In this document: piece after piece, positions 23,871 to 51,547 of the stretch
Layout of the letters: each line of letters begins with the position of its first letter
Numbering within the stretch: position 1 is the stretch's first letter
Assembly (NCBI GenBank): GCA_001029295.1
Contig: LDXJ01000041.1
Location: 1 to 58,239, forward strand
Reading direction: 5' to 3'
DNA length: 58,239 nt
From: Peptococcaceae bacterium CEB3
GTDB taxonomy: Bacteria; Bacillota; Desulfitobacteriia; Desulfitobacteriales; Desulfitobacteriaceae
Notes under the pieces: model-generated
The model's input: the letters and a program-made list of their open reading frames with translations, nothing else
Told to the model about the DNA's origin: nothing
Databases searched by the model: none
Translations under genes and position numbers: made by a program

Positions 23871-25586
23871 ATGAAAGAAACCAGAGAAAAAACCCACGGA
23901 GAAGCCGGAGAGGGAACCCACGGAGTAAGCGGAGAAGGAACTCACGGAGTGACCGGAGAAGGAACCCACGGAGTGATCGGAGAAGAAACCCACGGAGAAG
24001 TCCAAGAAGTCCCTTGCGATGCGACCGGCACGGGAGTCGATGACGGAACTCAGGACGGAACTTACGAGAGCTCTAGAGAACACACACGAGAAGAAGTTGG
24101 TTTGAAAAGTCAAGTCGGAATTCGAGTTAAACCTCAGGCAGAAGATCGAGCTAAACATCAGGCAGAAGATCGAGCTAAACATCAGGCAGAAGATCGAGCT
24201 AAACCTCAGGCAGAAGCTCGGGCTAAAACTCTAGCAGAAGCTCAACTTAAAACTCAGGCACAAACTCGAGAGCCGTATTTACTGGAATGCGTTCGCTTAG
24301 CTTCAGATGGTACCGGTGTAGGCTATATTGACGGTCTGGTCACTTTTGTTCCCGGACTCCTGCAAGGCGAAACCGGCCTCGTCCGCATCGAAGAGCGCAA
24401 AAAGCATTTTCTGCGGGGTGAGCTCGTGAAGGTGATGAAAGCCGCGGCCGTCCGGCAAGACCCGCCTTGCCCGGTGTTTCATGCGTGCGGCGGCTGCCAA
24501 TTGCAGCATATGAACTATGAAGAAACTTTGTTGTGGAAAAACCGTTGGGTCCAAGATGCCTTGGCAAGGGTGGGCAAAGTCCATGTGCGGGTGGAACCCG
24601 TTCTGGGTATGGATTTTCCCTGGCGCTATCGCAATAAAGTCACTTTACACCGCGACAAGGCCAATGCTTCCAGTGGAGGGAAGCCGACTCGTGGAAACGC
24701 GGCGGAAGGGACAGGGACGCAAGCGGTTTTGGGGTATTATCAAAACCGGAGTCACACTACGGTGGCCTTCCACGACTGCCTCCTGCTAAGCGAGCGCATG
24801 AATTCTTGGATTCGCGCCGTATCCCGGGTTATCGATGATTTCCCGGGGATAGAAGACGTCACTTTAAGGGAGTCAGATGCAGGAGAAGGGCTTTTTTTGA
24901 TCAAGGATTCCCGTTCAGGGAAGGGTTCGACTTTCGCCGTGAAGCGGGCTTTCTTTCCCGAAGTCGGAAGTGCCTTGGCGACGCGGGCGGGGGACACACC
25001 TCTGCGCCTTTGGGGACAGGAAACGCTGGAGGTTTCTTTCCTGGGAGTTCACTTTAGAGTTTCTCCTTTGGCTTTTCTCCAGGTCAATTACATCATGGCA
25101 GAAAAACTCTATTCTCTGGTTCGGCAGTTCGCGGGCTTAACAGGGAAAGAGCACGTTTGGGACCTGTACTCAGGGGTCGGTACATTATCCCTGATAGTTG
25201 CCGGCTGCGCCCACGATGTCTATGGGATTGAGGAGAATCCTTTCGCGGTCGAAGATGCGCGGAGGAATGCGGACTTAAACGGCTTCAAACACGTGCAGTT
25301 TCTGCAGGGCAAAGTAGAAGACAACCTGCCGAGGCTGCCTCTAAGGCCGGACGTGGTCATTATGGATCCACCCCGTGCCGGAGTCACGGCGGCCGTCATT
25401 GATCACATCCTACGCTCCCGCCCCGGGAAAATTATCTACGTTTCCTGTGATCCAGCAACCTTGGCTCGTGATCTATCCCGAATCGTCCGGGGCGAATACC
25501 AAGTGAGCTTGGTCCAGCCGGTTGACATGTTTCCTTGGACGAGGCATGTTGAGACGGTAACATGTATCGTAAATAAGAACAGATGA
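23871..25586 (+). CDS. rlmD: 23S rRNA (uracil-5-)-methyltransferase RlmD/RumA, with repeat-rich N-terminal extension
   Basis: SAM-dependent enzyme that methylates a uracil in 23S rRNA. Core from about residue 135: TRAM-like domain (CVRLASDGTGVGYIDGLVTF), [4Fe-4S] ligands C200, C206, C209 (CPVFHACGGCQLQH) with a fourth Cys in FHDCLLLSERMN, SAM site DLYSGVGTLSL, MDPPRAG, and the catalytic nucleophile C526 in VSCDPATLARDL. Intact C-terminus. 571 residues against about 450 usual, because of two in-frame 24-bp repeat tracts. AGGAGGG lies 25-30 bases before ATG 23871, too far for ordinary initiation, so the true start is uncertain. Two broken copies occur at 29.3 and 46.8 kb. Confidence 0.9.
   Translation: MKETREKTHGEAGEGTHGVSGEGTHGVTGEGTHGVIGEETHGEVQEVPCDATGTGVDDGTQDGTYESSREHTREEVGLKSQVGIRVKPQAEDRAKHQAEDRAKHQAEDRAKPQAEARAKTLAEAQLKTQAQTREPYLLECVRLASDGTGVGYIDGLVTFVPGLLQGETGLVRIEERKKHFLRGELVKVMKAAAVRQDPPCPVFHACGGCQLQHMNYEETLLWKNRWVQDALARVGKVHVRVEPVLGMDFPWRYRNKVTLHRDKANASSGGKPTRGNAAEGTGTQAVLGYYQNRSHTTVAFHDCLLLSERMNSWIRAVSRVIDDFPGIEDVTLRESDAGEGLFLIKDSRSGKGSTFAVKRAFFPEVGSALATRAGDTPLRLWGQETLEVSFLGVHFRVSPLAFLQVNYIMAEKLYSLVRQFAGLTGKEHVWDLYSGVGTLSLIVAGCAHDVYGIEENPFAVEDARRNADLNGFKHVQFLQGKVEDNLPRLPLRPDVVIMDPPRAGVTAAVIDHILRSRPGKIIYVSCDPATLARDLSRIVRGEYQVSLVQPVDMFPWTRHVETVTCIVNKNR
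23883..24263 (+). repeat. Two 24-bp repeat tracts in the 5' part of rlmD
   Basis: Tract one (23883-23999) encodes GEGTHGV(S/T/I) units. Tract two (24135-24263) encodes QAEDRAKH units, three near-perfect then drifting. Both periods are 8 codons. The encoded segment is very hydrophilic and charged. Confidence 0.9.
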
Positions 25587-26058: not shown

Positions 26059-27303
26059 ATGAAAGGCACGGCTCTAAAGGCTTACCTGGAAAAGAAGAAT
26101 ATTCGCCCGTCAACGTTGGCGAAAGAGTGCCAAATTGACAAGAGCTACTTAAGCAGACTTCTTAATGGTCAACGTTCTAATCCCCGCTTTCAGGTTTTGC
26201 TGTGTCTTGCGGCTAAACTGGGCTTATCCGAGGTCGCGGTGCAGAAGCTCCTTGAAACTACCTATGAGTCTTACGTGTTGGAAAACTTCCCAGAGATGCT
26301 TGCGGAACGGGCTTCTCAAGAACGGTTTTTCAACTACTTGCAACAAGTTATGGATGCTTCGGATGACAGTGAAATTTCCAAGGTGGCGGATCTCACCGAG
26401 ATTATTCGTAAGGTGGTTCCCGACAACTTTCCCATGAAGATATATTATCTATGCTGGTACGAGGCCTATACTTTGACCTTTCAAGACCAATTCGAAACTG
26501 CAATTCCGCTATTTATTGAGGCAGCGGGTGCGGGATTCAGTCCAAAATATGATATTGAGAAGCGTTTTAAAGCGAAGGTGCTTTTAGGTTTAGGTACAGC
26601 TTATATGGCCAGAGGGAAGTACAGCCAAAGTGCCCAGGCTTTTCGGCGGAGCTTGCTCTTGTGGGATGAGGGGTTTCAAGTAGGTCGGGTGAATATGAAT
26701 CTGGGCACACTTTATAGGAGGCTTGGCAGGTACGAGCGTTCTGCCGACGCATATGAGAGAGCCTATGAATTTGGAACCTCGGTCATTAAGCTATATGCTA
26801 TTTCCGGTTTAATTCAGGTCGCCCTTGATAAAAAAGATTATAGGGTTGCAAGAAAATGGGTTATTAGAGGATATATCCAAGCGAAAACAACGGACCTCCC
26901 ACGAGGCAAGGGCGACATCTACTGCAATATTGCTGAGTATTACTTGGCAATCGCAAAATTGCATCAGGCAGACTTTTTTTTCCGAAAGGCAATTCTTTTT
27001 GCAGACACCTCAGGAAGCATCCGAACAAAACAATGGGCTGAGGTGGAGTTCGCCACACTCTTCTTAAGAAAAGGCCTGGTAAAGGAGTTCCAGGGCATGG
27101 TCCAGAAGCTGGAGTCCGAATTATCAGGCCACGAGGATGTCCTACTTATTGCAAAGCATTTGAATGCTAAGGGGAGGCAGTGTCTTGAACGACGTGAGTA
27201 TTCAACTGCGGTTTGCATAATTCAAAAAGCCTATGCGCTTTTGAATTCCGGTTTTCCAACAGAATCTAAAGAGTGCTGTAAAATGCTGTATAAAGCTGTA
27301 TAA
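26059..27303 (+). pseudogene. HTH-TPR transcriptional regulator 1 (RNPP-like), C-terminus frameshifted
   Basis: XRE-type helix-turn-helix at residues about 4-60 (STLAKECQIDKSYLSRLLNGQR) followed by TPR-like helical repeats (FETAIPLFIEAAGAG, GKYSQSAQAFRRSLLLWDE, GRYERSADAYERAYEFG). This is the architecture of peptide-sensing RNPP regulators such as PlcR and NprR. ATG 26059 has GGGGAGAGG upstream; the frame is open 5' of it only by chance. GCTGTATAAA is duplicated in tandem at 27285-27304 and shifts the frame into a stop. Removing one copy restores KAYKALHEPKLATLYLNE and a stop at 27382, matching the end of the paralog at 33.4 kb. About 26 C-terminal residues are lost. Whether it is dead, partly active or reversible is unknown. 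Confidence 0.8.
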
Positions 27304-27396
27304 AGCATATAAGGCCTTGCATGAACCCAAATTGGCGACACTCTACTTAAACGAAATCAAAAGTACAAAGGATAACATTTAAGGAACAAAACGGTA

Positions 27397-27431
27397 ATTT
27401 TGTCGACTAGGCAACTTCGACAAAATACGAC
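27397..27431 (+). promoter_or_regulatory. Candidate regulator operator (perfect 10-bp inverted repeat)
   Basis: ATTTTGTCGA (27397-27406), 10-base spacer, TCGACAAAAT (27417-27426). The right half is part of TTCGACAAAATACGAC (27416-27431), nearly repeated at 34731-34746 behind regulator 2. No T-run follows, so not a terminator. It lies just upstream of a -35/-10 pair, a position suited to an activator. Confidence 0.65.
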
Positions 27432-27442
27432 ATTATTATATA

Positions 27443-27600: not shown

Positions 27601-27882
27601 GTGGGAATTGGTTCAAATGAATACAATTTATGCAGTTCATTCTATTCAGACGTATCTAATATAAATACTGATTGGGTTACAGTATACGGCATGCTGGGTG
27701 GTGCTTACTGCTCAGCGTTAGCGGCGGCAATAACTGGAGGAGAAACACTCGGTGTGGGGACAATTGTTGGTATTTTAACGGGTATGGGTCTTGGGTTAGG
27801 AAGTGTTGGATATTTGTATGGAGCATGGTCAAACGCACAGGCAGCAGATAAGGTTCTTGATGAACTAAGTGCAGCGTATTGA
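27601..27882 (+). CDS. Gly-rich hydrophobic small protein, start unclear
   Basis: Not recognised. The frame ends in a glycine-rich hydrophobic stretch (MLGGAYCSALAAAITGGETL, then VGTIVGILTGMGLGLGSVGY), reminiscent of small membrane-active peptides such as bacteriocins, but no family is certain. The same frame is open back to 27472 and reads sensibly (DAYYDIDAAAYGSGNEYYY) but has no ATG/GTG/TTG before GTG 27601, which lacks a ribosome site. The well-placed GGGAGG and ATG at 27503 are one base out of frame and give a 53-codon frame ending at 27664. So either the gene is frameshifted at its 5' end or the short frame is the true product. Confidence 0.4.
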   Translation: MGIGSNEYNLCSSFYSDVSNINTDWVTVYGMLGGAYCSALAAAITGGETLGVGTIVGILTGMGLGLGSVGYLYGAWSNAQAADKVLDELSAAY

Positions 27883-29257: not shown

Positions 29258-30460
29258 TTGGCTTCAGATGGTACCGGTGTAGGCTATATTGACGGTCTGG
29301 TCACTTTTGTTCCCGGACTCCTGCAAGGCGAAACCGGCCTCGTCCGCATCGAAGAACGCAAAAAGCATTTCCTGCGGGGTGAGCTCGTGAAGGTGATGCA
29401 AGCCGCGGCCGTCCGACAAGACCCGCCTTGCCCGGTGTTTCATGTGTGCGGCAGCTGCCAATTGCAGCACATGAACTATGAAGAAACTTTGTTGTGGAAA
29501 AACCGTTGGGTCCAAGATGCCTTGGCAAGGGTGGGCAAAGTCCATGTACGGGTGGAACCCGTTCTGGGTATGGATTTTCCCTGGCGCTATCGTAATAAAG
29601 TCACTTTACATCGCGACAAGGCCAATGCTTCCGATGGAGGGAAGCCGACTCGTGGAAACGCGGCGGAAGGGACAGGGACACAAGCGGTTTTGGGGTATTA
29701 TCAAAACCGGAGTCACACTACGGTGGCCTTCCACGACTGCCTCCTGCTAAGTGAGCGCATGAATTCTTGGATTCGCGCCGTATCCCGGGTTATCGATGAT
29801 TTCCCGGAGATAGAAGACGTCATTTTTAGGGAGTCAGATGCAGGAGAAGGGCTTTTGTTGATCAAGGATTCCAGTTCAGGGAAGGGTTCGACTTTCGCAG
29901 TAAAGCGGGCTTTCTTTCCCGAAGTCGGAAGTGCCTGGGCGACGCGGGCGGAGGACACACCTCTGCGCCTTTGGGGACAGGAAACGCTGGAGGCTTCTTT
30001 CCTGGGAGTTCACTTTAGAGTTTCTCCTTTGGCTTTTCTCCAGGTCAATTACATCATGTCAGAAAAACTCTATTCTCTGGTTCGGCAGTTCGCGGGCTTA
30101 ACAGGGAAAGAGCACGTTTGGGACCTGTACTCAGGGGTCGGTACATTATCCCTGATAGTTGCCGGCTGCGCCCACGATGTCTATGGGCTTGAGGAGAACC
30201 CTTTCGCGGTCGAAGATGCGCGGAGAAATGCGGATTTGAACGGCTTCAGACATGTGCAGTTTCTGCAGGGCAAAGTAGAAGACAACCTGCCGAGGCTGCC
30301 TCTAAGGCCGGACGTGGTCATCATGGATCCACCCCGTGCCGGCGTCACGGCGGCCGTCATTGATCACGTCCTACGCTCCCGCCCCGGGAAAATTATTTAC
30401 GTTTCCTGTGATCCCGCAACCTTGGCCCGCGATCTATCCCGAATCGTCCGGGGCGGATAA
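29258..30460 (+). pseudogene. rlmD copy 2, truncated at both ends
   Basis: Near-identical to the 23871 gene from its SDGTGVGYIDG block onward. It lacks the repeat-rich N-terminus and the first residues of the TRAM-like domain, and stops at SRIVRGG where copy 1 continues for about 28 more residues: GAATAC in copy 1 is GGATAA here. Fe-S cysteines are kept (CPVFHVCGSCQLQH) and the catalytic VSCDPATLARDL is present, but the C-terminal strands of the methyltransferase fold are gone. Probably inactive. Homology starts near 29244 and ends near 30470. Confidence 0.85.
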
Positions 30461-31462: not shown

Positions 31463-32275
31463 TTACCATTGCCTGCCCGAAATCCCTGCCATTTGGTTAC
31501 CTGTGCCTTGAGGATAAAGGACATTATAATGCTCCATCGACGGGTTGGGGGTACTGGTTGTGGCTCGCGGGAATATGAATTCAATTTTAAATTGGGTTCC
31601 TGCAGTATAGCCAATAATTTCCTGAGTGTTGGATATTGTATCATAGGCTGGGGTTCCCAAAACCTCTTTGACTTTATTAATAGTGATGCCCACGAAGTGG
31701 CTACTTGCCAAAGACCTGATCTCAAATATTTGTCCCCCTTTATTGAAGCCAAATACGATGTGATGACTTAAATAGGTAGCATAGGTACCATTGGCAGCAG
31801 CCACATAGTCAACTTGATCGGGCTTTCCCCAGTACGCTTCAACAGTTCTGATATTCGTCGTCTTTGCGGAAAATCTACTTGGAAAGTCGAAATCATAAAT
31901 TTTACCCTGTTTAGCTAGTTGCATCATATTTAATAGCAGAGCCGTAGCAGCATTGGCGCTTTGAGACGCCAAATCCGTTGAGGCAAAATTAGGACTGCCG
32001 GTAGAATGCTGTGGTTGGGTCCCGGTTGAGGACGGATTAGCGGAATTGCTGCCCGAACCCGAACCCACAGTAGTAGGGGTTGAGGATGTGCTGCTCTTTT
32101 GTTGGCTGGGATTACTGGCGCTTTGGGTCTGATGGGTCGCGGCATTAGCGGTTTGGCCTGGGGCGTTGACCGTGGAGGCAATAGGATTGCTCAGGCTTGA
32201 ACACCCCACGACCAGGGTCAAAGCTAGGGCCGCGACCGTCCACTTCACGGTTGCTTTTTTGAAAGAAGCGATCAT
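31463..32275 (-). CDS. Membrane-anchored sensor-like protein with DUF4309 domain (lost its M56 protease part)
   Basis: About 270 residues. N-terminal membrane segment ending in VVGCSS, usable as a lipobox, then a Ser/Thr/Asn-rich linker (residues about 30-95) and a C-terminal domain resembling DUF4309/YjgB (VEAYWGKPDQVDYV, HHIVFGFNKGGQIFEIRSL, VKEVLGTPAYD). It has its own ribosome site (AAGGAGAATT). The DNA from the linker through blaI duplicates 50.3-52.4 kb, where the same membrane segment is fused behind an M56 protease and the sensor domain is different. Here about 880 bp encoding the protease are deleted and only a short remnant (QLLSEPHWAPGTIGFANKFN) is left upstream in frame. Confidence 0.75.
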   Translation of the reverse strand: MIASFKKATVKWTVAALALTLVVGCSSLSNPIASTVNAPGQTANAATHQTQSASNPSQQKSSTSSTPTTVGSGSGSNSANPSSTGTQPQHSTGSPNFASTDLASQSANAATALLLNMMQLAKQGKIYDFDFPSRFSAKTTNIRTVEAYWGKPDQVDYVAAANGTYATYLSHHIVFGFNKGGQIFEIRSLASSHFVGITINKVKEVLGTPAYDTISNTQEIIGYTAGTQFKIEFIFPRATTSTPNPSMEHYNVLYPQGTGNQMAGISGRQW

Positions 32276-32394
32276 AATAATTCTCCTTTTGTTAAATTTG
32301 TTGGCAAAACCGATGGTTCCCGGAGCCCAATGAGGTTCAGAGAGGAGTTGCAAAAGGCGGATGATCGTCTGGCCGAATCCCTTTCCCTACGTCC

Positions 32395-32775
32395 CTACGT
32401 CAGCCGCGCATCCAGCAGGTTTCTCAGGTCCTTGACTTCTTGGAGAGACAAGTATTCACTCTTGACAAAGTTCGTCAGCATAAGGTGAAGCGAGTCTCCA
32501 TAAACCTTGTGCAGAAAAGATTTCGTTTCTTCGCGCATGCAGTCTTCCTGCGACACTAGAGGATAAAACTGGCGCAAAGTTGCGGAATCCTTGTCAACCC
32601 CAAGAGCCCCTTTTTTCACCAACCGCCCCATCAAGGTCTGAACGGTCTTAGGGCTCCAGGAACTGTCCGCCCTCAGACGCGCGACCACGTTGGAAGCCGT
32701 CAGCGGGGATTCCTGCCAAAGGACTTTCATGACTAGCCACTCTGCAGTGGAAATTTTACATGCAACATCGTCCAT
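32395..32775 (-). CDS. BlaI/MecI-family repressor, copy A
   Basis: 126-residue winged-helix repressor (KISTAEWLVMKVLWQESPLT, WSPKTVQTLMGRLVKKGAL), of the kind that represses beta-lactamase or other genes until an M56 sensor protease triggers its cleavage. Differs from the 51568 copy by only a few residues. GGGGGAGG lies 9 bases before the start. A palindrome just upstream is the likely autoregulatory operator. Its own M56 partner is deleted here, so it could respond only to the distant sensor at 49.8 kb. Confidence 0.9.
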   Translation of the reverse strand: MDDVACKISTAEWLVMKVLWQESPLTASNVVARLRADSSWSPKTVQTLMGRLVKKGALGVDKDSATLRQFYPLVSQEDCMREETKSFLHKVYGDSLHLMLTNFVKSEYLSLQEVKDLRNLLDARLT

Positions 32776-33291: not shown

Positions 33292-33391
33292 GCAGGGAAA
33301 ATCACCGGTTGTTTCGGTTTTAGCAGGAACTTGCAATGACAGCGTCGAATGCTTGGGGAGTGCAGTTTGCGCGGGAGGGGAGAGGAACGCA

Positions 33392-34702
33392 ATGAAAGGC
33401 ACGGCTCTAAAGGCTTACCTTCAAGAGGAAAATGTTCGCCCATCAACGTTAGCCAAGTCATGCCGTCTCAGCGAGAGCTATATGAGCAGGATCCTCAATG
33501 GCCAACGTCTTAATCCCTGCATCGGTGTGCTTGAGCGTCTGGGGGCAGAACTCGATTTGCCGGTAGATAGAGTTCAGAAACTCCTTGACACTCCGTATAA
33601 CTCATTTATCTCTGCAAGAACTTTGTCACAAAACGCTACCGAACAGTTCTTTGGCTTATTGAAGGAGACCTTGGATGCTTTGGATCAGAGTGATTTAGCA
33701 ACAGTTTGCGGCTTAAATGATGTGATTTGTAGGAAAGTTCCAGACTCAGTCTGCTTGAAATTCAACTACTTATCTTGGTTTGAGGCCTTCAATTCGACGT
33801 TGCAAGGCAAATTCGAAACCGCCATTCCTGTTTTTTTTGAAGCGTCACAGTTTAGCCCCAGATATGACATTGAGAAGCGTTTCAAAGGAAAAATACTGGG
33901 AGGATTAGGCGCCGCCTACACGGCGAGAGGAAAGTACACCCAAGGTATGAAGGCATTTCGCCAGAGTTTGTTTTTGTGGTCGGAGGGTTTCCAGGCGGCT
34001 TGGGTGAATATGAATCTGGGTACACTTTATCGGAGACTTACCAGATACGAGCTTTCGATCGGTGCCTATGAATACGCCGACAAGTACGGGACAGCGGTCA
34101 CGAAACTTCAGGCATTTGTCGGGCTGATTCAAGTCTCTCTTGATAGGAAGGATTTTAGCGCCGCGAGAAAATACGTTCTCAAAGGATACGCCCACGCAAA
34201 GACCCTTGATTCCCCAAGAGGTAAGGGTGATCTGTATTGCAATATTGCCGAGTACTATTTCGCCAGCGGAGACTTGCGTCGCTCTGAATTCTTTTTCCGG
34301 AAAGCTATTTTGTTTGCTGATCGTTCCGGAACACCCCGGACAAAACATTGGGCCTGCGTTGAATTGGGTGCGCTCCTGTTAGGGCGAGGTTTACACAAAG
34401 AATTTGAAGCCACGATGCAAGCACTGGAATCAGAATTGTCAGGCGGCGAGGATGTTCTGCTCGTAGCTAAACGCTTAAATGTGTTAGGTAGGCAGTCCCT
34501 GGCAGAGAGGCGATACAGTCAAGCGATTCGTCTTGCCGGACAAGGATACGCGCTTCTGGTTTCGCTTTCCACGCCTTCTTGGGTAGACTTTGAGGAGTCT
34601 ATTCAATTGCTGGCTGAGGCGTACTCGGGCTTAAAAGACAGAAATGCGGCGAATCTGTATATTCATGAACAAAGAAGATTAAAGAGGTTCGAGCCCAGAT
34701 AG
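33392..34702 (+). CDS. HTH-TPR transcriptional regulator 2 (RNPP-like)
   Basis: 436 residues, intact paralog of the 26059 gene. XRE-type helix-turn-helix (STLAKSCRLSESYMSRILNG) at residues about 18-37, then TPR-type helical hairpins through the C-terminus (FETAIPVFFEASQFS, GKYTQGMKAFRQSLFLWSE, DLRRSEFFFRKAILFA, RYSQAIRLAGQGYALL). In RNPP regulators the TPR domain binds a short imported peptide and switches DNA binding. A promoter with a putative operator and a secreted peptide gene follow at once, as in PlcR-PapR and NprR-NprX. Ribosome site GGGGAGAGG before ATG 33392. The assignment to peptide sensing is inferred from architecture and neighbourhood. Confidence 0.8.
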   Translation: MKGTALKAYLQEENVRPSTLAKSCRLSESYMSRILNGQRLNPCIGVLERLGAELDLPVDRVQKLLDTPYNSFISARTLSQNATEQFFGLLKETLDALDQSDLATVCGLNDVICRKVPDSVCLKFNYLSWFEAFNSTLQGKFETAIPVFFEASQFSPRYDIEKRFKGKILGGLGAAYTARGKYTQGMKAFRQSLFLWSEGFQAAWVNMNLGTLYRRLTRYELSIGAYEYADKYGTAVTKLQAFVGLIQVSLDRKDFSAARKYVLKGYAHAKTLDSPRGKGDLYCNIAEYYFASGDLRRSEFFFRKAILFADRSGTPRTKHWACVELGALLLGRGLHKEFEATMQALESELSGGEDVLLVAKRLNVLGRQSLAERRYSQAIRLAGQGYALLVSLSTPSWVDFEESIQLLAEAYSGLKDRNAANLYIHEQRRLKRFEPR

Positions 34703-34730
34703 GAGAGGGAGGCTGATCAGGCCAGTCAAG

Positions 34731-34787
34731 TTCGACAAATATCGACGGGAAAGTCAGCACCAAATCGTCCCGCCAATGTGCTAAGAT
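34731..34787 (+). promoter_or_regulatory. Operator motif and promoter of the peptide gene
   Basis: TTCGACAAATATCGAC (34731-34746) matches the cassette 1 motif at 13 of 16 positions. TAAGAT (34782-34787) is a reasonable -10, again starting exactly 36 bases after the motif ends. The -35 region (ACCAAA) is poor, which would fit activation by the bound regulator. Confidence 0.6.
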
Positions 34788-34810
34788 GATTGCAAGAGGG
34801 AGGTGAGACT

Positions 34811-34972
34811 ATGAGAAAGACCATTCTGAGTGTATTATTAGCAGGTAGTCTTCTTTTAGTTTCATTCCAATTTAGTCCGATTCTACACCTCGCTCATTCA
34901 GCTCATATTTCTACGCATCCAACCCAAAGCTCCACTTTCCACCCTAATATCGACCCGATTGAAGGGGGATAA
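34811..34972 (+). CDS. Secreted peptide, candidate pheromone precursor of regulator 2
   Basis: 53 residues: basic start MRKT, hydrophobic core LSVLLAGSLLLVSF, then HLAHSA, a plausible signal peptidase site, and a polar tail ending STFHPNIDPIEGG. Size and plan match PapR/NprX/Phr-type precursors, which are exported, trimmed and re-imported. GGGAGGTGA lies 7 bases before ATG 34811. The gene follows the HTH-TPR regulator by 108 bp behind its own promoter. The active peptide would come from the C-terminal tail; its exact ends are not predictable. Confidence 0.65.
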   Translation: MRKTILSVLLAGSLLLVSFQFSPILHLAHSAHISTHPTQSSTFHPNIDPIEGG

Positions 34973-36262: not shown

Positions 36263-36379
36263 ATGAATGAACAAGAAAATGACAACTCTCTCACTCAGTG
36301 TGATGTTTTTGAAGTAGACGAAACTACAGAAAAGGAATATTTATCGTGTGAGATCGTCGGTTCAATCGGTGCACAATAG
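36263..36379 (+). CDS. Candidate RiPP precursor peptide
   Basis: 38 residues with an excellent ribosome site (AAAGGAGGT, 8 bases before ATG 36263). The first 25 residues are acidic and polar (MNEQENDNSLTQCDVFEVDE), like a leader; the end is YLSCEIVGSIGAQ, which could be the core. Two Cys, at residues 13 and 29. It is the first gene of an AT-rich cluster followed by two radical-SAM proteins, the usual neighbourhood of a ribosomally synthesised, post-translationally modified peptide. I do not recognise the family. No exporter or peptidase gene is adjacent. Confidence 0.6.
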   Translation: MNEQENDNSLTQCDVFEVDETTEKEYLSCEIVGSIGAQ

Positions 36380-36400
36380 AAGATAGCTTTTATTTCTTGT

Positions 36401-36459
36401 AGATTTCCCCCACTTTCTAGAATTATAAATTATAAAATTTAGCAAAGTGGAGGAAATCT
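36401..36459 (+). promoter_or_regulatory. Long stem-loop between precursor and first radical-SAM gene
   Basis: AGATTTCCCCCACTTT (36401-36416) and AAAGTGGAGGAAATCT (36444-36459) pair over 16 positions with one mismatch; the 27-base loop is very AT-rich. It lies 22 bp after the peptide stop and 76 bp before the enzyme start. It may end most transcripts after the peptide, giving excess precursor over enzyme. Confidence 0.65.
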
Positions 36460-36535
36460 TATCTTACTGGCCTTAATTAAAGCTAGAAAACTGTTTTTGG
36501 CAATGTTGAAGTGTTTTTTAGCATGGAGAAACAAA

Positions 36536-38101
36536 ATGAAATTTATATTAATGATACCATTTGGGGGACTTCCTATTTCATCACCCGACCTTGGAGAATG
36601 GTACCATAAAGCAAGACGCACTGAAGAAATCGATGTTATCAATTTAAATTACGAGTTTTGGTTACATATCGTTAGCCAGGAATGCATGAGATTACTTGTT
36701 GGCGATAAAGTCAATGAAATAAGTATGAGCAACACGACTCTGCAAAGATTAGAAGCTGAGAAGTCGTTTGCTGATTTAAGATCCTACAATACTTACTTCT
36801 CAAAAAATAATTACTCTAGATGCATTGAGAGAATAGAAAACTATTTAAGATTTTTAAATAGCTGTCAAGCCGAATTGTCCTTTAGTATTTTACTTGGGTT
36901 AAGAGTTAATCAAATTGACTATAACCATACCAAAAGCGTTGAGAGGTATTTAGATGATGCTCCTCTCCTAGAGAAAATACTTTATAGCTATTTTAATAAA
37001 AACAGTATGAAAGCTGATGGTTTACTGCTAAAGGTTAGAACCCAATATGAATTGGTATTTACAATAGTATTGTGCAAGGTAATTCGAAATTTAAAAAGGG
37101 GCATAAAAATTTGTTTAGTTGACCGTGAATACGAAAGTTTTATATTAAATAATGTTGGCTTAGATAATACTCTGTTTAAAAATGCCTTTGATTCGATAGT
37201 TCTAAAGCCCACGGAGCGTAACCTTCTTATACTAATAGAAGCCTTAAAGGCAAATCAGTCAATTCCATATATTATCGAAGAAAAAACTCTGCATGAAATT
37301 GAAGGACCTTCCGGTCAGTACCAAAAGAAGCAGTATAAAAAAACAGAGTTTGTCCCAACGCTTAAATCCTTTGTTCCTGACTATTCTGTTTCAACTAGGC
37401 TAAGCATGAGGCCCTGTTACTGGAAGAAATGCTCTTTCTGCATCCAAAATACTAAGGTCGGTCTATTAGAAGCTAATATACGAGAAGATGAAAAATATGC
37501 CCACATAAAACTCATGTATGAAAGCGGATATCGCTACTTTGTATTTATAGACGAGGCACTAGACAGGTCAACTATAGTGGATTTTGGGAAATGGGTCAAG
37601 GAGCAAGGCCTTGAAATAACTTGGCTATTCAGGACTCGCTTAGATTGCGGTTTTGACCAGGAATTAGTTGAAACCATAGCCGCCTCGGGTTGCATAAGTG
37701 TTGGTTTCGGATTTGAAACAATCAATTGCCTAACCTTAAAGTCCATGAATAAATACAAAGATATTCCCTCTTTAAGTGAGATTGGAAGATTATTAGATAT
37801 GTTAGTTAAAAATAATATTATGATTCATCTCAATTTAATATTGGGTTACCCGGGAGAATCCATCGCTGATATGAATAAAACTATCGAATATGTTGGAGAA
37901 TTATTAAATACTTCCTATTTATATACCTTTACTTTAAATAGATTTACATTATTTAAGAATACAAGAATTTATGAGAATCCAGAGGATTATGGAATAGAAA
38001 TAAGTGAAGCAGAAACCGATTTTAGTTTTACTAAGGCCCATGAGATAAAGGATAGGACTTACTCTGATATGGAATTTAATAAGTTTATTTATAAGGCATA
38101 A
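36536..38101 (+). CDS. Radical-SAM protein (RiPP-maturase-like), N-terminal B12-like domain
   Basis: 521 residues. The start at ATG 36536 (GGAGA 7 bases upstream) gives MKFILMIPFGGLPISSPDLG, like the N-terminus of B12-binding/RiPP-maturation radical-SAM proteins. The [4Fe-4S] cluster motif is RPCYWKKCSFC (C294, C299, C302; spacing C-x4-C-x2-C, as in CYWGKCxFC families rather than C-x3-C-x2-C). It is followed by the SAM-domain strands FVFIDEALD, FRTRLDCGFD, GCISVGFGFET and LNLILGYPGES. It probably installs a modification, such as methylation, a thioether or epimerisation, on the adjacent peptide; which one cannot be told. AT-rich against the core genome, suggesting transfer. Confidence 0.75.
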   Translation: MKFILMIPFGGLPISSPDLGEWYHKARRTEEIDVINLNYEFWLHIVSQECMRLLVGDKVNEISMSNTTLQRLEAEKSFADLRSYNTYFSKNNYSRCIERIENYLRFLNSCQAELSFSILLGLRVNQIDYNHTKSVERYLDDAPLLEKILYSYFNKNSMKADGLLLKVRTQYELVFTIVLCKVIRNLKRGIKICLVDREYESFILNNVGLDNTLFKNAFDSIVLKPTERNLLILIEALKANQSIPYIIEEKTLHEIEGPSGQYQKKQYKKTEFVPTLKSFVPDYSVSTRLSMRPCYWKKCSFCIQNTKVGLLEANIREDEKYAHIKLMYESGYRYFVFIDEALDRSTIVDFGKWVKEQGLEITWLFRTRLDCGFDQELVETIAASGCISVGFGFETINCLTLKSMNKYKDIPSLSEIGRLLDMLVKNNIMIHLNLILGYPGESIADMNKTIEYVGELLNTSYLYTFTLNRFTLFKNTRIYENPEDYGIEISEAETDFSFTKAHEIKDRTYSDMEFNKFIYKA

Positions 38102-38856
38102 TGATTTATGGGAAAAGCAAGTTTGCACCCTATCAACTATAGGAGCGAAATTCTTATATAATAATAGCCTTCACGGAATATATCTAAGGCAGAAAAGATA
38201 ACAGTTAAACAATTTTTTAGTCTTTAGATAAAATATGATTATCTCCGTTTTTTTGCCGCTCTTCTTACGCAGGCTCTTAGTTCTTACAAAACTGACACTG
38301 GAAGGAGGCTTGCTGCTGTTCCTACTATTTGTGTTTTCAAGTTGTTTGACTCTTGCTCGAGGACGGGCGTTTGCAGGGCCTTCTACTGATAAGAGCTGCT
38401 TAAAAGAAACGACCAGAGAGATCACAGCATCGACTCCCTTGTCGTAGACGGCCTGGTGTCTTCACGTTTTACCTAAAGATCACCTCCGGTCGGGTGAGGC
38501 GGAGTTAAGGCCTTCTCTTTTTTGGACGAGGCGTACCTTCCTAAAAAGCTGTTTTTATAGGAAAATCGCGCCTTGCTAATGCATTCCTGCTTAGACATCT
38601 TTTTGAAGAAAATTTTGTCATCAGCTCACACAGCCCTGCTTTACATGGGGCGGGATCCGGCGAAAGATTAAGCAACTACGTCATCCGGAAGCCTGGCTTT
38701 TTATAATTTACGTGGCTGAGGAAAACCTCAAAAAATGGCTTGATTACCGAAACTATCGGGAATCCCCAAAAAAGAGCGCACTTAACTAAGCTAATTGGTC
38801 AGGTTAAAAAATGTGTTAGAAAAAAGTCATAAAAGAATCATAAAGGAGCAGAATTT
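38102..38856. other. Gap between the two radical-SAM genes, transposon debris
   Basis: Contains the IS66-like fragment listed separately. Near 38660-38790 a plus-strand frame reads IKQLRHPEAWLFIIYVAEEN followed by KKWLDYRNY, a remnant of an unknown protein. The remainder shows nothing. Confidence 0.4.
38250..38390 (-). pseudogene. IS66-type transposase fragment
   Basis: Encodes ARVKQLENTNSRNSSKPPSS followed by KSLRKKSGKK, the conserved N-terminal NSSKPPSSD-like motif region of IS66 transposases; nothing else of the gene remains. Confidence 0.65.
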
Positions 38857-40047
38857 ATGAAAATATTATTAATAAATAGTTTTCAATTTGGAAGACTAGT
38901 AGTTCCAATTAATGTACTTAGTTTAGCCGCTGCCCTCCAAAAAGAAAATTATGATGTAAGTATCCTGGACTATAATTATGCTTCACAATCTGGGAATTTA
39001 GTAGTTAAGGAAAATAATATTGATGAAAATTTAGATGCCATGACAGATTTAGCCTTGTCTTACGGAGCTGATTTAATTGGACTAAACTGCATCTGTAGCA
39101 ATTACCATATTTTCCTTGACCTAGGAAGAAGAATCAAGTTAAAAAGACCTCATGTTAAGCTATTCCTGGGTGGTCCTCAGGCATCCATCACTGCAGAAGA
39201 AACCCTGAAGGCCTGTCCTTTTGTAGAGCTCATTGGAATAGGCGAATGCGAGCGTAATATTTGCAGTATAGTCAATTACTTGAGTGGGAAAATAGAACCG
39301 AACAATATTCCCGGGATAGCCTACAGAAAAAATGGACAAGTAGTCCGTAATGCTGAAGGCGCTTTGATTCTTGACTTCGAAGACTTGCCAAAGCTCAACT
39401 ATTACCTATTACCTTACATGGATAAGTTAGAAGAAGTAGACATTGAAGGAGGACGGGGGTGCCCTTTTAGCTGTAAATTTTGCTCAACAAAAACCTTTTG
39501 GAAGCGTAGATTTAGATTAAAGGATCTTAATCTTATTATTGATGAAATCAAGGAATTAAAGAAAAATTACGGAATAAAGCACTATAATTTTATCCATGAT
39601 CTTTTTACAGCTAATAAAGCAAAAATCCTAGAATTTTGTGATATGCTTGTAGAAAACAATCTAAACATAATTTGGACTTGTAATTCTAGACTAGACACGA
39701 TAGATGAAGAAATAATGATAAGGCTAAAGGAAGCTGGCTGTTATCTGGTTTTCTTTGGTATTGAAACAGGTTCTCCTAGAATGCAAAAGATAATAAGTAA
39801 AGATTTGGATTTAACTGAATTGCTACCCAAAGTTAAAATGCTTCAAAAGCATAAAATAAAACTAGTATTATCTTTTATATATGGATTCCCAGAAGAAACT
39901 ATCGAGGATGTTAGAGCTACCCTATCAACAATAAGGCAACTACAAAAACTTAATGTAAAAGTAATTCAAATACACCGCTTTACAGTATTAAGCGGAACAG
40001 AATATTATTATAAATATAGAGATAAATTGAAATTTAAGGCAAACTAA
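38857..40047 (+). CDS. B12-binding domain radical-SAM protein (5' part of a split gene)
   Basis: 396 residues. N-terminal cobalamin-binding-like fold (MKILLINSFQFGRLVVPINV, KLFLGGPQASITAEETL) followed by a radical-SAM barrel with GGRGCPFSCKFC (C202, C206, C209, C-x3-C-x2-C), NSRLDTIDEEI, FFGIETGSPRMQK and LSFIYGFPEETIED. Class B radical-SAM enzymes of this kind include peptide and carbon-centre methyltransferases. AAAGGAG lies 9 bases before ATG 38857. The frame ends early at FKAN-stop; the next reading frame looks like its own C-terminal domain, so the gene is probably frameshifted. Confidence 0.8.
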   Translation: MKILLINSFQFGRLVVPINVLSLAAALQKENYDVSILDYNYASQSGNLVVKENNIDENLDAMTDLALSYGADLIGLNCICSNYHIFLDLGRRIKLKRPHVKLFLGGPQASITAEETLKACPFVELIGIGECERNICSIVNYLSGKIEPNNIPGIAYRKNGQVVRNAEGALILDFEDLPKLNYYLLPYMDKLEEVDIEGGRGCPFSCKFCSTKTFWKRRFRLKDLNLIIDEIKELKKNYGIKHYNFIHDLFTANKAKILEFCDMLVENNLNIIWTCNSRLDTIDEEIMIRLKEAGCYLVFFGIETGSPRMQKIISKDLDLTELLPKVKMLQKHKIKLVLSFIYGFPEETIEDVRATLSTIRQLQKLNVKVIQIHRFTVLSGTEYYYKYRDKLKFKAN

Positions 40048-40063
40048 AAAATCAATAACCGGA

Positions 40064-40639
40064 ATGTTCAATCAGCTTCCGGATGAACTCTTTGTTAAAA
40101 ATAATCCCGAACTATTCCCCCACTTTCATGCAGTAGACGGCTACCCGGAGTATCTAGAATCACTGGATAAGTTTATTTGTTTATTTTCCTTTGAAATCAG
40201 GAAATATTTTAAAAGTACCTATGACACCTTATTAGAATATTTCAATGAAGACCTACTGCGATTTTATTTAGAATTATTAAGATTTGATAGTGAGATATTC
40301 AACGATCTCGATAATTATTTCTTAAGCAATAAAGTTGTAATGGAAAAAGCTTATCTTAGGCTAGGACGAGATATTTGTATCCCTAAATTCAAAGCATACA
40401 TTATGCAGTCTGATTTTGCTGAAAAGACTGAGCTGATTAGGGAGATACTTAATTACGAATCCGATAGAATGAAGTATTACTACTTAGAAGATAATGAGCC
40501 AGTAGTAAAAAAGTATATGTTCGATGTAATAGACATATGTATAAAAAATCAAAACAAACAAGTTGCAGAATATGACCTCACTACCGTTGAATTTGTGAGG
40601 GATGGTCGAAAGGTTATAGCGAGGAGAATTACAGGTTAG
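40064..40639 (+). pseudogene. C-terminal domain of the split radical-SAM protein
   Basis: 191 codons, mostly helical, starting MFNQLPDELFVKNNPELFPH. ATG 40064 has no real ribosome site. Dropping the T at 40045 joins the frames as FKANKKSITGMFNQLPDELF without a stop, giving one protein of about 593 residues. Either a genuine frameshift mutation, a sequencing error, or a separate partner protein. Confidence 0.6.
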
Positions 40640-46811: not shown

Positions 46812-47344
46812 ATGAAAGAAACCAGAGCAAACCCACGGAGTGACCGGAGAAGGAACCCACGGAAAAGTCCAAGAAGTCCCTCGCGATGCGACCGGCGCGG
46901 AAGTCGATGACGGAACTCAGGACGGACTCAGGGGTCGGTACATTGTCCCTGCTAGTTGCCGGCTGCGCCCACGATGTCTATGGGATTGAGGAGAATCCTC
47001 TCGCGGTCGAGGATGCGCGGAGAAATGCGGACTTGAACGGCTTCAGACATGTGCAGTTTCTGCAGGGCAAAGTAGAAGACAACCTACCGAGGCTGCCTCT
47101 AAGGCCGGACGTGGTCATCATGGATCCACCCCGTGCCGGAGTCACGGCGGCCGTCATTGATCACATCCTACGCTCCCGCCCCGGGAAAATCATTTACGTT
47201 TCCTGTGATCCCGCAACCTTGGCCCGCGATCTATCCCGAATCGTCCGGGGCGGATACCAAGTGAGCTTGGTCCAGCCGGTTGACATGTTTCCTTGGACCA
47301 GGCACGTTGAGACGGTAACATGTATCGTAAAGAAGAACAGATGA
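46812..47344 (+). pseudogene. rlmD copy 3, internally deleted
   Basis: Keeps the rlmD leader (GAGGAGGGAAGGCTAGGTTAT near 46773), a frameshifted bit of the N-terminal repeat, then jumps from the GTGVDDGTQDG region straight to SGVGTLSLLVAGCAHDVYG and runs to an intact C-terminus (MFPWTRHVETVTCIV). The Fe-S domain and most of the protein are deleted. A 152-codon frame from 46886 is open but cannot form the enzyme. Confidence 0.88.
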
Positions 47345-48074: not shown

Positions 48075-48530
48075 ATGCCATTATCGACGTCTCAAGTTAT
48101 CCTATATGCTGCGGATACAGTGGATTATGAACTTGCATTAGGCGCAGCGGCTTCGGCGTATATCCCAATTTCCAATGTTATCGGGGATTTTGCAACAGCT
48201 TGGAATGATGTAGCAAGCGGAAACTATCTGGTTATTGCCGTTGGAGGTCCGGCAACCAATGCCTTGTATTATAATCCCTGTGGTTGGGGTGGTGCCGGTT
48301 CTACGCAACTTAACCCAACAGCTGCCTATCCCGTGGATACTCTACCAGGTGCCTATTATTATGAGAATGCTGCCGGAAGTGATAGAACGGCAACTCTGTA
48401 CCTTGCGATCGTATTCGCCTATTACGCAGTCAACGGTGCCCCTCCGCCAAATTACGATAACCTGCCTTCACCAGAGGCCCCGGTGGATACCTGTGCCGGA
48501 AGTAACAGTGTAGGTTGTCCGTGTCCGTAA
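48075..48530 (+). CDS. Hypothetical protein, duplicate of the N-terminal domain of the next gene
   Basis: 151 residues. About 70% like residues 1-150 of the following protein by eye (shared LYAADSVDYE-type start, SYLVIAVGGPATNALFYNPC, YPVDTLPGANYYENAAGSDR, LYLATVFAYYAVNG). No signal peptide. The Cys-rich end (VDTCAGSNSVGCPCP) matches the junction in the longer gene. The domain is not one I can name; it may be a carbohydrate- or wall-related module. GAAAGGAGA lies 11 bases before ATG. Confidence 0.6.
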   Translation: MPLSTSQVILYAADTVDYELALGAAASAYIPISNVIGDFATAWNDVASGNYLVIAVGGPATNALYYNPCGWGGAGSTQLNPTAAYPVDTLPGAYYYENAAGSDRTATLYLAIVFAYYAVNGAPPPNYDNLPSPEAPVDTCAGSNSVGCPCP

Positions 48531-48570
48531 GCTGACGAGGTTTATTCATTTGAAAGGAGTGTGTACAACC

Positions 48571-49668
48571 ATGCCATTATCACCTTCTCAGGTTATTCTA
48601 TACGCTGCGGATTCAGTCGACTATGAAGTCGCATTGGCAGCCGCAGCTTCTGCTGGAATTGTTGCTACAAATGTAATTGGCGATTTCCCAACGGTTTGGA
48701 ACCTTGTTGCAAGCGGAAGTTATTTGGTGATTGCAGTAGGTGGTCCTGCAACAAACGCCTTGTTTTATAATCCTTGTGATTGGGATAATCTTTCCGTTGT
48801 GCCGTTTAACCCAACGGCTTCCTATCCGGTGGACACTTTACCGGGAGCCAACTATTATGAAAATGCAGCAGGTAGCGACAGAACAGCCAGTTTGTATCTC
48901 GCGACTGTATTCGCCTATTACGCGGTAAATGGATCACTACCCACCAATTGGACCAATTCCCCTACACCAGCATCTGCCGTCGATACCTGTGGTGGAAGTA
49001 TCAGTATAAACTGTCCTTGCCAGGCCACATCTTGTCTCAACGGGCTCGACTCCGATTCTGATTTGTCTTCCGAGGCGTCATGCATGTGGACGAATACACC
49101 ATATTGGTTTCTTGGTCGTTATCTGGGCGGCCCGTGCTACCCCGGCACTCCTCTGTCAGAGTCGGAGGCGTCGACACTTAGCAATACTGGATTTTGGCTT
49201 ATGAGCATATATTCTGGAGCAAACTACACGAGCAAAGATAATTGCGGGACACAGTCTTATTCGCAAGGTCAATCGGACGGTCAACAAGCAGTTTCAATGG
49301 CACAGGGGGTTGGACAACCACTCCACTCGGCCATTTACCTTGACCTTGAGGCCAACCAGTTGAATCAAAGCAATTATCTCGGTTATGTTCAAGGGTGGGT
49401 CAGTGCCGTCAGCACAGGCGGGTATGTCCCAGGGGTATATTCGTCGCCAAGCCAGCTAAACACGATCCAGAGCCAATCTTGGGCTGGAAATTCAATTCTA
49501 TATTGGAATGCAGACTGGATATACTCAAGTGTACAAACCCCGGCGCCGTGCCCTTCCTCAGAATTGAGTTTTGCTCAAGGGTGGCAATATGCAGGACTAG
49601 CATCTCTGCGTAATATTGGTATTGACATTGATAGTGCTCAAAACGTGTACGGCATGTGGAAGATTTAA
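48571..49668 (+). CDS. DUF1906 (glycoside-hydrolase-like) protein with the same N-terminal domain
   Basis: 365 residues from ATG 48571 (AAAGGAG upstream). Residues 1-150 repeat the preceding protein. After the linker CPCQATSCLNG comes a DUF1906/Rv2525c-like glycosidase fold: WFLGRYLGGPC, TGFWLMSIYSGANY, GQQAVSMAQGVGQP, HSAIYLDLEANQ, GVYSSPSQLN and WQYAGLASLRNIGIDIDSAQ. Such proteins are thought to act on cell-wall polysaccharide. No N-terminal signal peptide is visible, unusual for a wall enzyme. Followed by a strong terminator, so the two genes form a small operon. Confidence 0.75.
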   Translation: MPLSPSQVILYAADSVDYEVALAAAASAGIVATNVIGDFPTVWNLVASGSYLVIAVGGPATNALFYNPCDWDNLSVVPFNPTASYPVDTLPGANYYENAAGSDRTASLYLATVFAYYAVNGSLPTNWTNSPTPASAVDTCGGSISINCPCQATSCLNGLDSDSDLSSEASCMWTNTPYWFLGRYLGGPCYPGTPLSESEASTLSNTGFWLMSIYSGANYTSKDNCGTQSYSQGQSDGQQAVSMAQGVGQPLHSAIYLDLEANQLNQSNYLGYVQGWVSAVSTGGYVPGVYSSPSQLNTIQSQSWAGNSILYWNADWIYSSVQTPAPCPSSELSFAQGWQYAGLASLRNIGIDIDSAQNVYGMWKI

Positions 49669-49765: not shown

Positions 49766-51547
49766 TTATTTGCTTTGCCCCATGATAGAGCTTAAGGGGA
49801 CCATCGATTTAGCTATGTGCTCAATATCCAATTCGGATACTTTATTTATATCAAATGACATCATTACATGTGTTTTGCCTTGGTCTGTTCGGTACTGCAG
49901 AAAGTAAGTTCCGTTATCTGTAGTACTCTTATACCAGTTGGCTGTTACACCGTTTATATTGGTAGTGCCGATCTCTTCAGGATCATTTGTGTTATAGATT
50001 TCGTCATGATTAGATAGATTTATTGTAAAATCATTGAAATAAAGTGAAAAAACTTCAATTGCAGTACCTTGGTATGCTCCGGAATCAGCTTTGATTAACC
50101 GACTACCCTGGGGAACCTGAGTTGGGACAAGTACGTTCACCCCGTTATCGAATTGGTAACTTGCCATATTAGCAAATATCTTAAGGTTCTTTAAAGCATT
50201 ATTGATCATTGTAAGATATTCAGGGGTTAGATTAAAATGTTCAAAGGTGGTTAATTGAGTGGATGCATTTTGCGCAATATTCGCTTCTGCTAGGTTAGGA
50301 CTGCCGGTAGAATGCTGTGGTTGGGTCCCGGTTGAGGACGGATTAGCGGAATTGCTGCCCGAACCCGAACTTACAGTAGCAGGGGTTGTGGATGTGCTGC
50401 TCTTTTGTCGGCTGGGATTACTGGCGCTCTGGTTCTGATGGGTCGTGGTGTTAGCGGTTTGGCCTGGGGCGTTGACCGTGGAGGCAATAGGATTGCTCAA
50501 GCTCGAACACCCCACGACCAGGGTCAAGGCTAGGGCCGCGACCGTCCACTTTACGGTTGCTTTTTTGAAAGAAGCGATCATAATAATTCTCCTCTTGTTA
50601 AATTTGTTGGCAAAACCAATGGTTCCAGGAGCCCAATGAGGTTCAGAGAGGAGTTGCAAAAGGCGGATAATCGTCTGGCCGTATTGCCTATGCTCTTCCG
50701 GTCTGACCACAGCCAGAGCCGTGGCGTCACAGGCCATTTCACAGTCCTGCTTCATATGCCGGAGCGCGTACCCGATGAGCGGATTGAACCAATAGACGAC
50801 TTGCACCGACGTGACCCACGCATTCACCCAGTGGTCCCGTCTTTTTAAATGGCTCAGCTCGTGTAAGAAAATGTAGCGCAGTTCCTCCGGTGCCAACTCA
50901 GCAAGGAGTTTGGGCGAGATGACGATTTTGGGCCGGATTAAACCGAAGAGAGCCGGGGACTTCAGGGAGTCATCATAGATGACAGAAATCTTAGAACGGA
51001 CTTGGAGGGTTAATTGACATTCCCGCAGGATTTCGCGGACCTCCGGAGCTTCGCAGAGGCTTTGTTTCTTGGACTTTAGGAGCAGCCATCCGTTCACGAC
51101 CAGAATATAAGCGAAAAGGAGGAAAACTCCGCCCAGCCAGACAAAGGCGGCCATGAGCCAATTGAGTCCCAACGTGGCACGGGTGGGGGAAGGAACGGGA
51201 GTTTTCCCGGCTGAGGGCAGATTTCCCGCTTCAGGTCGGGCCATGTGGGTGGTCGGTGGGGTGGACGTCAGGGCTTTCTGAGGGGAAGATGAGAAGGGTT
51301 GAGTGGAAAGCGTCTGGGATAAAGGAAAGGTCTGGCGGAGGGAAGGCCAGGGATTCAAGACACTGAATGAACTGGGCAGGGTCAAGGGGATGAGCAATCT
51401 CAGAATGAGCACAAACCAAAGGGCGTAATGCCAATGAGCACTGAGCTTGGGCCGGAACAGCCGCTGGATGAACAGAATGCCCAGGGCCAAAAGGCTGCCC
51501 AGGAGGGATAAAGAAACAACACTGCGAAAGAGGTCCGCTAAACTCAT
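49766..51547 (-). CDS. M56-family sensor protease (BlaR1-like) with DUF4367-like sensor domain
   Basis: 593 residues. Membrane spans at about 8-28, 40-60 and 130-155; zinc protease motif HELSH (H229, E230, H233) in FLHELSHLKRRDHW; a fourth span at about 330-346 (TVKWTVAALALTLVV); then a Ser/Thr/Asn-rich linker and an outer C-terminal domain resembling DUF4367 (VLVPTQVPQGSRLI, INGVTANWYKSTTD, TDQGKTHVMMSFDI). M56 proteases sense an outside signal and cause cleavage of the BlaI repressor encoded 20 bp upstream. An internal ribosome site and ATG at M323 could also give the sensor part alone, as happens in the truncated copy at 31.5 kb. Confidence 0.85.
   Translation of the reverse strand: MSLADLFRSVVSLSLLGSLLALGILFIQRLFRPKLSAHWHYALWFVLILRLLIPLTLPSSFSVLNPWPSLRQTFPLSQTLSTQPFSSSPQKALTSTPPTTHMARPEAGNLPSAGKTPVPSPTRATLGLNWLMAAFVWLGGVFLLFAYILVVNGWLLLKSKKQSLCEAPEVREILRECQLTLQVRSKISVIYDDSLKSPALFGLIRPKIVISPKLLAELAPEELRYIFLHELSHLKRRDHWVNAWVTSVQVVYWFNPLIGYALRHMKQDCEMACDATALAVVRPEEHRQYGQTIIRLLQLLSEPHWAPGTIGFANKFNKRRIIMIASFKKATVKWTVAALALTLVVGCSSLSNPIASTVNAPGQTANTTTHQNQSASNPSRQKSSTSTTPATVSSGSGSNSANPSSTGTQPQHSTGSPNLAEANIAQNASTQLTTFEHFNLTPEYLTMINNALKNLKIFANMASYQFDNGVNVLVPTQVPQGSRLIKADSGAYQGTAIEVFSLYFNDFTINLSNHDEIYNTNDPEEIGTTNINGVTANWYKSTTDNGTYFLQYRTDQGKTHVMMSFDINKVSELDIEHIAKSMVPLSSIMGQSK

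Follow-up and report, generated by a model that had tools for sequence, protein, structure and literature searches.

Regulator and peptide genes

In the window analysed here, the whole 58,239-nt stretch of DNA, the gene of a regulator with HTH and TPR parts is followed by a small ORF on the same strand. Do these two genes form a peptide-pheromone quorum-sensing pair, as an original prediction made from the sequence had it, and to which known kind does the pair come closest? The host is a spore-forming sulfate-reducer relative, and its genome (G000) belongs with genome G001 to one genus, that of Acididesulfobacillus acetoxydans, which NCBI lists under Peptococcaceae, the family that the original prediction had guessed. 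The features of the locus are as follows:

33323..33349, + strand: element GCAGGAA...GTCGAA 5' of the regulator, from sequence comparison of regulator starts
33392..34702, + strand: HTH and TPR regulator, candidate pheromone receptor, from the ORF, Pfam, the fold model and a profile search
33392..33589, + strand: HTH at the regulator N-terminus, residues 1-66, from Pfam, the alignment and a profile match to the SinR HTH (E 9.6e-10)
34811..34972, + strand: 53-aa candidate pro-pheromone with a signal-like N-terminus, from the ORF, small-ORF comparison and peptide alignment
34943..34960, + strand: conserved peptide core PNIDPI, from peptide alignment and a codon-pattern search

The regulator ORF runs from an ATG at 33392 to a stop at 34702 and encodes 436 aa. 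Both domains claimed for it are seen: TPR families lie over the Pfam cut-off (TPR_1 at 4.3e-9 and TPR_12 at 5.9e-8), and the HTH appears below the cut-off in Pfam (HTH_31 at 1.7e-4, 22.3 bits vs 27) and in the SinR profile match. In the C37 paralog HTH_3 is over the cut-off (36.4 vs 23), and Y30, S32 and R39 of the HTH are invariant in all seven aligned regulators. RRNPP receptors are described as proteins of 250–500 aa with TPRs (PMC10075063), and the regulator has this length and these repeats.

The peptide ORF starts with an ATG at 34811, 108 bp after the regulator, is preceded by a ribosome-binding site as judged by eye, and ends with a stop at 34972; its size and position lie within the ranges for RRNPP propeptides (10–100 aa, adjacent, -60 to 400 bp). 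The product, MRKTILSVLLAGSLLLVSFQFSPILHLAHSAHISTHPTQSSTFHPNIDPIEGG, has a positive start, a hydrophobic stretch and a polar tail, with MRKTILSVLLAGSLLLV as its N-terminus and FHPNIDPIEGG as its end, and a plausible signal-peptidase site (HSA followed by H) was read by eye. Hence the regulator and peptide ORFs of the original prediction are confirmed, together with the short polar tail. The peptide gave no Pfam match and a weak PhrA-like NCBIfam score (E 0.1).

The GCAGGAA...GTCGAA element is common to five regulator starts of the host genus (both window copies, C37 and two regulator remnants) and was not seen at G014 or at the DPIK-type regulators of C32 and G001. As a sigma-H promoter for the regulator it would be weak and is not claimed, having three mismatches to the sigma-H consensus; sites at least as good number 26 in 401,514 bases, and three of these belong to the regulators. 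Palindromes of sequence GGAACATGTTCC lie 5' of both window regulators and were rejected as an operator because they are part of a repeat that also occurs away from regulators and is missing at the C37 locus. This repeat, roughly 130–225 nt long, has four window copies (25757, 33087, 47493 and 52261) with partly matching sites, and the exact palindrome is also present in C35, C46 and C61.

Co-conservation and distribution of the pair

Regulator relatives were searched with a 7-row profile and were found in 5 of the 73 genomes of the order, 5 of the 82 of the class and 3 of a phylum-wide sample of 398, in which no more than four candidates were scored per genome. All fall in one family, in five genomes of four genera, and no relative was found in phage records (E 1e-5), in plasmid records or, by pattern search, in viral contigs; planctomycete and gammaproteobacterial loci were dropped, matching TPR parts only. 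The pair makes up a small subfamily, seen here within a single family of bacteria. The nine full or C-terminal copies compared are the window regulator, a second window copy, C37 (L003), C32 (L004), G001 (L008), G014 (L006/L031), two in G007 (L007 and L009) and a C-terminal fragment in G011 (L025); N-terminal remnants are present in C57 (L005) and G001 (L010). The second window copy is:

26059..27303, + strand: paralogous regulator, frameshifted, 59% identical over residues 1-391

Its frameshift lies at a 10-nt tandem duplication read from the sequence at 27286-27305. The original prediction would have been refuted by a peptide ORF that is not kept beside regulator homologues, and it is kept: eight of the nine loci carry, next to the regulator, a small ORF bearing the core P-x-[IM]-D-[PG]-I, downstream in seven cases and divergently upstream in one (G014). 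The ninth, the frameshifted paralog at 26059, has no partner peptide, and the two N-terminal remnants are without a core-bearing small ORF. Because the C32 and G001 loci are orthologous, the eight peptide loci are not fully independent. PNIDPI-type tails are also found at C37 (...PSPNIDPIEA) and G014 (...YRPNIDPIQA); the others end in ...TPAMDPIKLIHFFA at C32, ...TPAIDPIKLIHFFG at G001, ...NPQIDPIKLMPYM at G011, and ...VPLIDPIQAAVLH and ...APLMDGIDCG in G007. In the alignment of the eight peptides, invariance is limited to the start M and to three core residues (P, D and I), and outside the last few residues the precursors vary in sequence and in length (35–53 aa by aligned starts). A possible Sec-type signal can be discerned by eye in the peptides of the window, C37 and G014, and the DPIK-type peptides are short hydrophobic ORFs with no clear cleavage site.

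When the window and nine loci (200,757 bases) were searched in six frames for P.[IMVL]D[PG][IVL] within stop-to-stop stretches below 110 aa, nine matches were obtained, the eight peptides and one unrelated; this count is partly circular because the motif was drawn from the peptides, and the rarity of the motif elsewhere is not. Across the 73 genomes of the order, the PNIDPI codon pattern gave 11 matches vs 5 with a reversed control. Only three of the 11 close a short signal-like ORF, all of them beside regulators, and the other eight encode no short signal-like peptide. In the regulator tree, the PNIDPI[EQ] regulators form one clade (100/99), which also contains the peptide-less 26059, and the DPIK regulators another (99/97), in which the G011 fragment covers 35% of the alignment columns; both G007 regulators have weak positions in the tree (45/4).

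Could the peptide ORF be no gene at all? Its shortness, the missing Pfam match and the weak PhrA-like score are what such a reading can draw upon, and we regard it as very improbable. Frame and tail are kept in eight loci, a ribosome-binding site and a common promoter box precede the ORF, and per-site dS is above dN in two comparisons over few sites, L004 with L008 (0.21 vs 0.10, from 5 and 8 changes) and P0002 with C37 (1.88 vs 0.48). Thus, since the tail core recurs beside eight of nine regulators and dS exceeds dN in both comparisons, the ORF is not a chance one.

Fold of the regulator

An AlphaFold2 model from the 7-row alignment (pLDDT 90.1, pTM 0.73) contains, by our own reading of the helices, an HTH and nine TPR-like helical hairpins. 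Among the structural matches listed, the best for the TPR region is eukaryotic LGN (Z 25.3), and peptide-bound Rap 4gyo (Z 24.1, 311 residues, rmsd 5.7), NprR 5dbk (Z 23.4, 338 residues, rmsd 6.8, 12% identity in the structural alignment) and NprR with NprX, 4gpk (Z 21.7), are also matched. Ordered by Foldseek E-value, the first Rap structure stands at position 34, and the best 50 matches listed include no NprR; PrgX, ComR, PlcR and Rgg are missing from the best 50 structural matches listed in the Z-score comparison, from which nothing follows against them. In the profile search NprR chains were found at E 9.1e-5 (4gpk, over residues 135-341 only) and 1.8e-4, about 49th of 135 matches, after designed TPRs, LGN and others. 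Since LGN is the best match, Rap ranks low by Foldseek E-value and NprR ranks low in the profile search, the fold and profile matches show a TPR superhelix and little more. T211, R214, R215, Q247, D251 and C283 are among the invariant residues that fall at presumed groove positions, and invariant residues as a whole are weakly enriched at the presumed TPR ligand positions (8/35, vs 7/40 at signature and 10/95 at other positions).

The locus had been predicted to follow the PlcR-PapR/NprR-NprX plan, and by the number of hairpins in the model one half of that prediction stands. The HTH and nine-hairpin architecture of the NprR subfamily is recovered by the fold model, Pfam and the profile search, in likeness to NprR and also to Rap; the five-TPR fold of the PlcR type is not, the model having nine hairpins. 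Hence the regulator is grouped with the nine-TPR receptors and not with PlcR.

A conserved box at the peptide promoter

The peptide gene had also been given a promoter of its own. The standard sigma-70 scan, which listed no promoter for this gene, speaks against that claim, and two elements upstream of the start codon speak for it:

34731..34746, + strand: conserved box TTCGACAAATATCGAC before the peptide gene, from the 12-mer search, containing the reverse complement of the Spo0A core
34782..34787, + strand: extended -10, TAAGAT with a preceding TGC, 51 bp from the box start

The box emerged as the best common 12-mer, TTCGACAAAATA, when the 110-nt regions preceding seven peptide genes were compared, with 9–12 letters matched per region. 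Against its total of 58, 300 dinucleotide shuffles gave 50.2 (sd 1.07) and never more than 53, and none of the 300 was as good at widths of 10, 12 or 14; without the G007 L007 region, one of 300 reaches the score of the box at width 14. A weaker test by exact hexamers gave TTCGAC in five of the seven regions, a count reached by 28 of 2000 shuffles. Relative to the start codon, the box begins between -73 and -80 in six of seven cases and at -111 in C37, where the distances for C32, G011 and L009 were counted from a chosen inner start codon.

A related site lies after the window paralog:

27416..27432, + strand: tandem box TTCGACA-AAA-TACGACA, 51 bp before TATAAT (27467)

The distance from the box to a -10-like element is 51 bp at the window peptide, 26059, C37, both G014 sites (the second box lies 3' of the regulator) and G007 L007, and 41–42 bp at C32, G001, G011 and G007 L009, so that a -10-like hexamer stands at 41, 42 or 51 bp in all ten sites compared. 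Six of the ten have three or fewer of the six -35 letters, six have TG before the -10, and six keep AATA past the Spo0A core. Within 200,757 bases, 43 sites come within two mismatches of the 12-mer, and nine of these have a -10-like hexamer at 40–42 or 50–52 bp; seven are at regulator loci, and the two away from them are L034 8204 and L032 10686. A 17-mer form, allowing two mismatches, has four sites in G000, two at regulator loci, and the box of the window peptide is too diverged to be included. The 17-mer sites in C22, C64 and one in G014 have no regulator-peptide pair and look like chance.

Two proteins come into question as the binder of this box. It may be the regulator's own operator, giving a direct autoinduction loop in the same pair in place of Spo0A control; the constant spacing at ten of ten sites is consistent with this, as are the poor -35, the TG and the AATA at six sites each, the location at regulator loci of seven of the nine correctly spaced 12-mer sites, and that of two of the four 17-mer sites in G000. 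Nevertheless the sequence at 34731 is TTCGACA, which exactly matches the Spo0A core, TGTCGAA, in reverse complement, and the tandem 7-mers 3 bp apart at 27416 fit the Spo0A layout. Moreover, the position of the box in six of seven regions resembles that of the C. difficile Spo0A sites before spo0A and sigH, at -75 and -78 (PMC3485338). A CGACAG box was found by eye in the spoIIGA promoters of all five genomes, although in G007 and G011 it is 28 bp before TATAAT, nearer than the box here; the upstream regions of spoIIE (G007, G011 and G014) have GTCGAAA in the opposite orientation. Because the box contains the Spo0A core, the operator reading was demoted to a rival, and we hold it to be possible at somewhat less than even chance. 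Judged from the sequence, the conserved box is probably a Spo0A site, and Spo0A control of the peptide gene is the likelier of the two.

Cassettes and neighbouring genes

The genes beside the regulators differ between loci. After the box of the window paralog there is:

27601..27882, + strand: bacteriocin remnant resembling geobacillin-26, covering positions 115-191 of the 197 in the family, from a family profile match (E 4.9e-10, 39.6 bits vs a cut-off of 40)

In the C37 cassette, an ATPase comes nearest to lantibiotic-protection ABC subunits (E 1.4e-46, under the family cut-off); it stands with a 301-aa protein that has no match and a 129-aa protein whose start is signal-like. A palindrome, AAAGCTGGCCAGCTTT, lies at about 3377-3396 of L003, just 5' of the -10-like TATAAT of the 129-aa gene. 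Beyond the window pair come transposase-like remnants, read by eye, and then two radical-SAM genes; the first has 23% identity to a radical-SAM gene that follows the regulator of G014, and the second is B12-binding and ApyD-like (E 6.2e-73, below cut-off). The window at 36263-40639 holds a small ORF, the two radical-SAM genes and a 191-aa ORF, a possible RiPP cluster. Downstream of the G011 pair, and of one of the pairs in G007, come a protein whose start is signal-like, the two having no detectable homology, and small membrane-like proteins, which are homologous (31%). These neighbouring cassette genes may be targets of the regulator.

The bacteriocin-like cargo, namely the geobacillin-26-like remnant at 27601 and the lantibiotic-protection-like ATPase of C37, would also suit a peptide that is itself an antimicrobial or other effector, with the regulator sensing something else. 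This we consider improbable: conservation is limited to the last few residues and the rest varies, as in pheromone precursors, and the type of peptide tracks the receptor clade.

Full and shortened copies of housekeeping genes flank the regulator cassettes, an RNA methyltransferase-like gene in the window (23871-25586, 29258-30460 and 46886-47344) and a RarA-like ATPase gene in C37 (L029 6590-7906 and 13891-14985), both read by eye, which suggests duplication at insertion. A gene pair for a BlaR1-type M56 peptidase and, by eye, a BlaI-like repressor occurs twice in the window (31463-32353 and 32395-32775; 49766-51547 and 51568-51948), the first copy being shortened. The window also has two related ORFs at 48075-49668, and the second of these contains an Rv2525c-like glycoside hydrolase domain (Pfam 5.3e-25). 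An AgrB-family gene at L025 8-538 (Pfam E 3.6e-19) lies upstream of the regulator fragment in G011.

A predicted signalling pair and its relation to known systems

Receptor and peptide recur together with the same short motif, and the pair is thus probably a new branch of peptide quorum-sensing systems. We consider it quite probable that the two genes form a quorum-sensing pair of RRNPP type with the HTH-nine-TPR (NprR/Rap-like) architecture, with a probably Spo0A-linked signal and predicted control of cargo genes, and the quorum-sensing interpretation of the original prediction is supported. We infer that Sec would export the 53-aa precursor, and that cleavage followed by trimming would leave a short C-terminal peptide around PNIDPIE. 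An oligopeptide (Opp-type) transporter would then import the mature peptide, which would bind in the concave groove of the regulator's TPRs and alter the DNA binding or oligomeric state of the regulator; this in turn may change transcription of nearby bacteriocin-like, secreted-protein and possibly radical-SAM genes. The probable Spo0A box at the peptide promoter would link the signal to the transition or sporulation state. Opp-type binding proteins (SBP_bac_5) are present in the host genome with 10 matches and in all five genomes, and are common also among controls (11 of 14 control genomes).

A more far-reaching version, which seems to us rather unlikely, is that the receptor family keeps the core P-x-[IM]-D-[PG]-I with a precursor type that differs by clade, long and Sec-type in one, short, hydrophobic and SHP-like, ending in DPIKLIHFF, in the other. 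One Spo0A-timed signal would then fire duplicated antagonism cassettes together, several receptors in one genome sharing a near-identical signal in duplicated bacteriocin cassettes flanked by housekeeping copies.

Known systems resemble the pair in part. The phage AimR-AimP system combines an HTH-TPR receptor with a small peptide, as does the pair here; unlike AimR, the regulator has no relative among phage records at E 1e-5, and its score with the AimR family NF038310 (NCBIfam) is 19.0 bits against a cut-off of 70. PlcR-PapR is an HTH-TPR activator with a secreted precursor, again as here. However, PlcR is placed in a five-TPR clan, whereas the model here has nine hairpins; of the nine-TPR groups, QssR, NprR and Rap form one clan and AloR and AimR another (PMC12700828). 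Rap-Phr of Bacillus is similar in its Phr-binding TPR superhelix (Z 24.1 to 4gyo) and in the weak PhrA-like score of the peptide (E 0.1), but Rap is described as having no HTH (PMC12700828) and the regulator here has one. NprR-NprX of the Bacillus cereus group shares the HTH, the nine-TPR superhelix and the small secreted peptide, and differs in sequence (12% identity), in lineage, and in the core P-x-[IM]-D-[PG]-I and bacteriocin-like cargo found here. Without NprX, NprR blocks Spo0F phosphorylation, and with NprX it is a tetrameric activator (PMC4970707); NprR itself thus ties a pheromone to sporulation. QssR/Qsr of Clostridium is similar by description, as an RRNPP system of anaerobic Clostridia (PMC10075063, PMC7376267). 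The subfamily is not named in the main texts of the literature covered: Desulfosporosinus, Desulfitobacter and Peptococc do not occur in those of PMC10075063 and PMC9765709, nor Desulf and Peptococc in that of PMC12700828, and no publication joining RRNPP with Desulf was found; the 307 clusters of RRNPP_detector may include the pair.

Acidophilic sulfate-reducing Peptococcaceae have been studied for the treatment of acid mine drainage, and the pair would give these bacteria peptide signalling with predictable signal sequences, the predicted signal around PNIDPIE being short enough for synthesis. It would also contribute a compact subfamily of the HTH-nine-TPR kind, with two types of precursor across which receptor, signal and promoter lend themselves to comparison.
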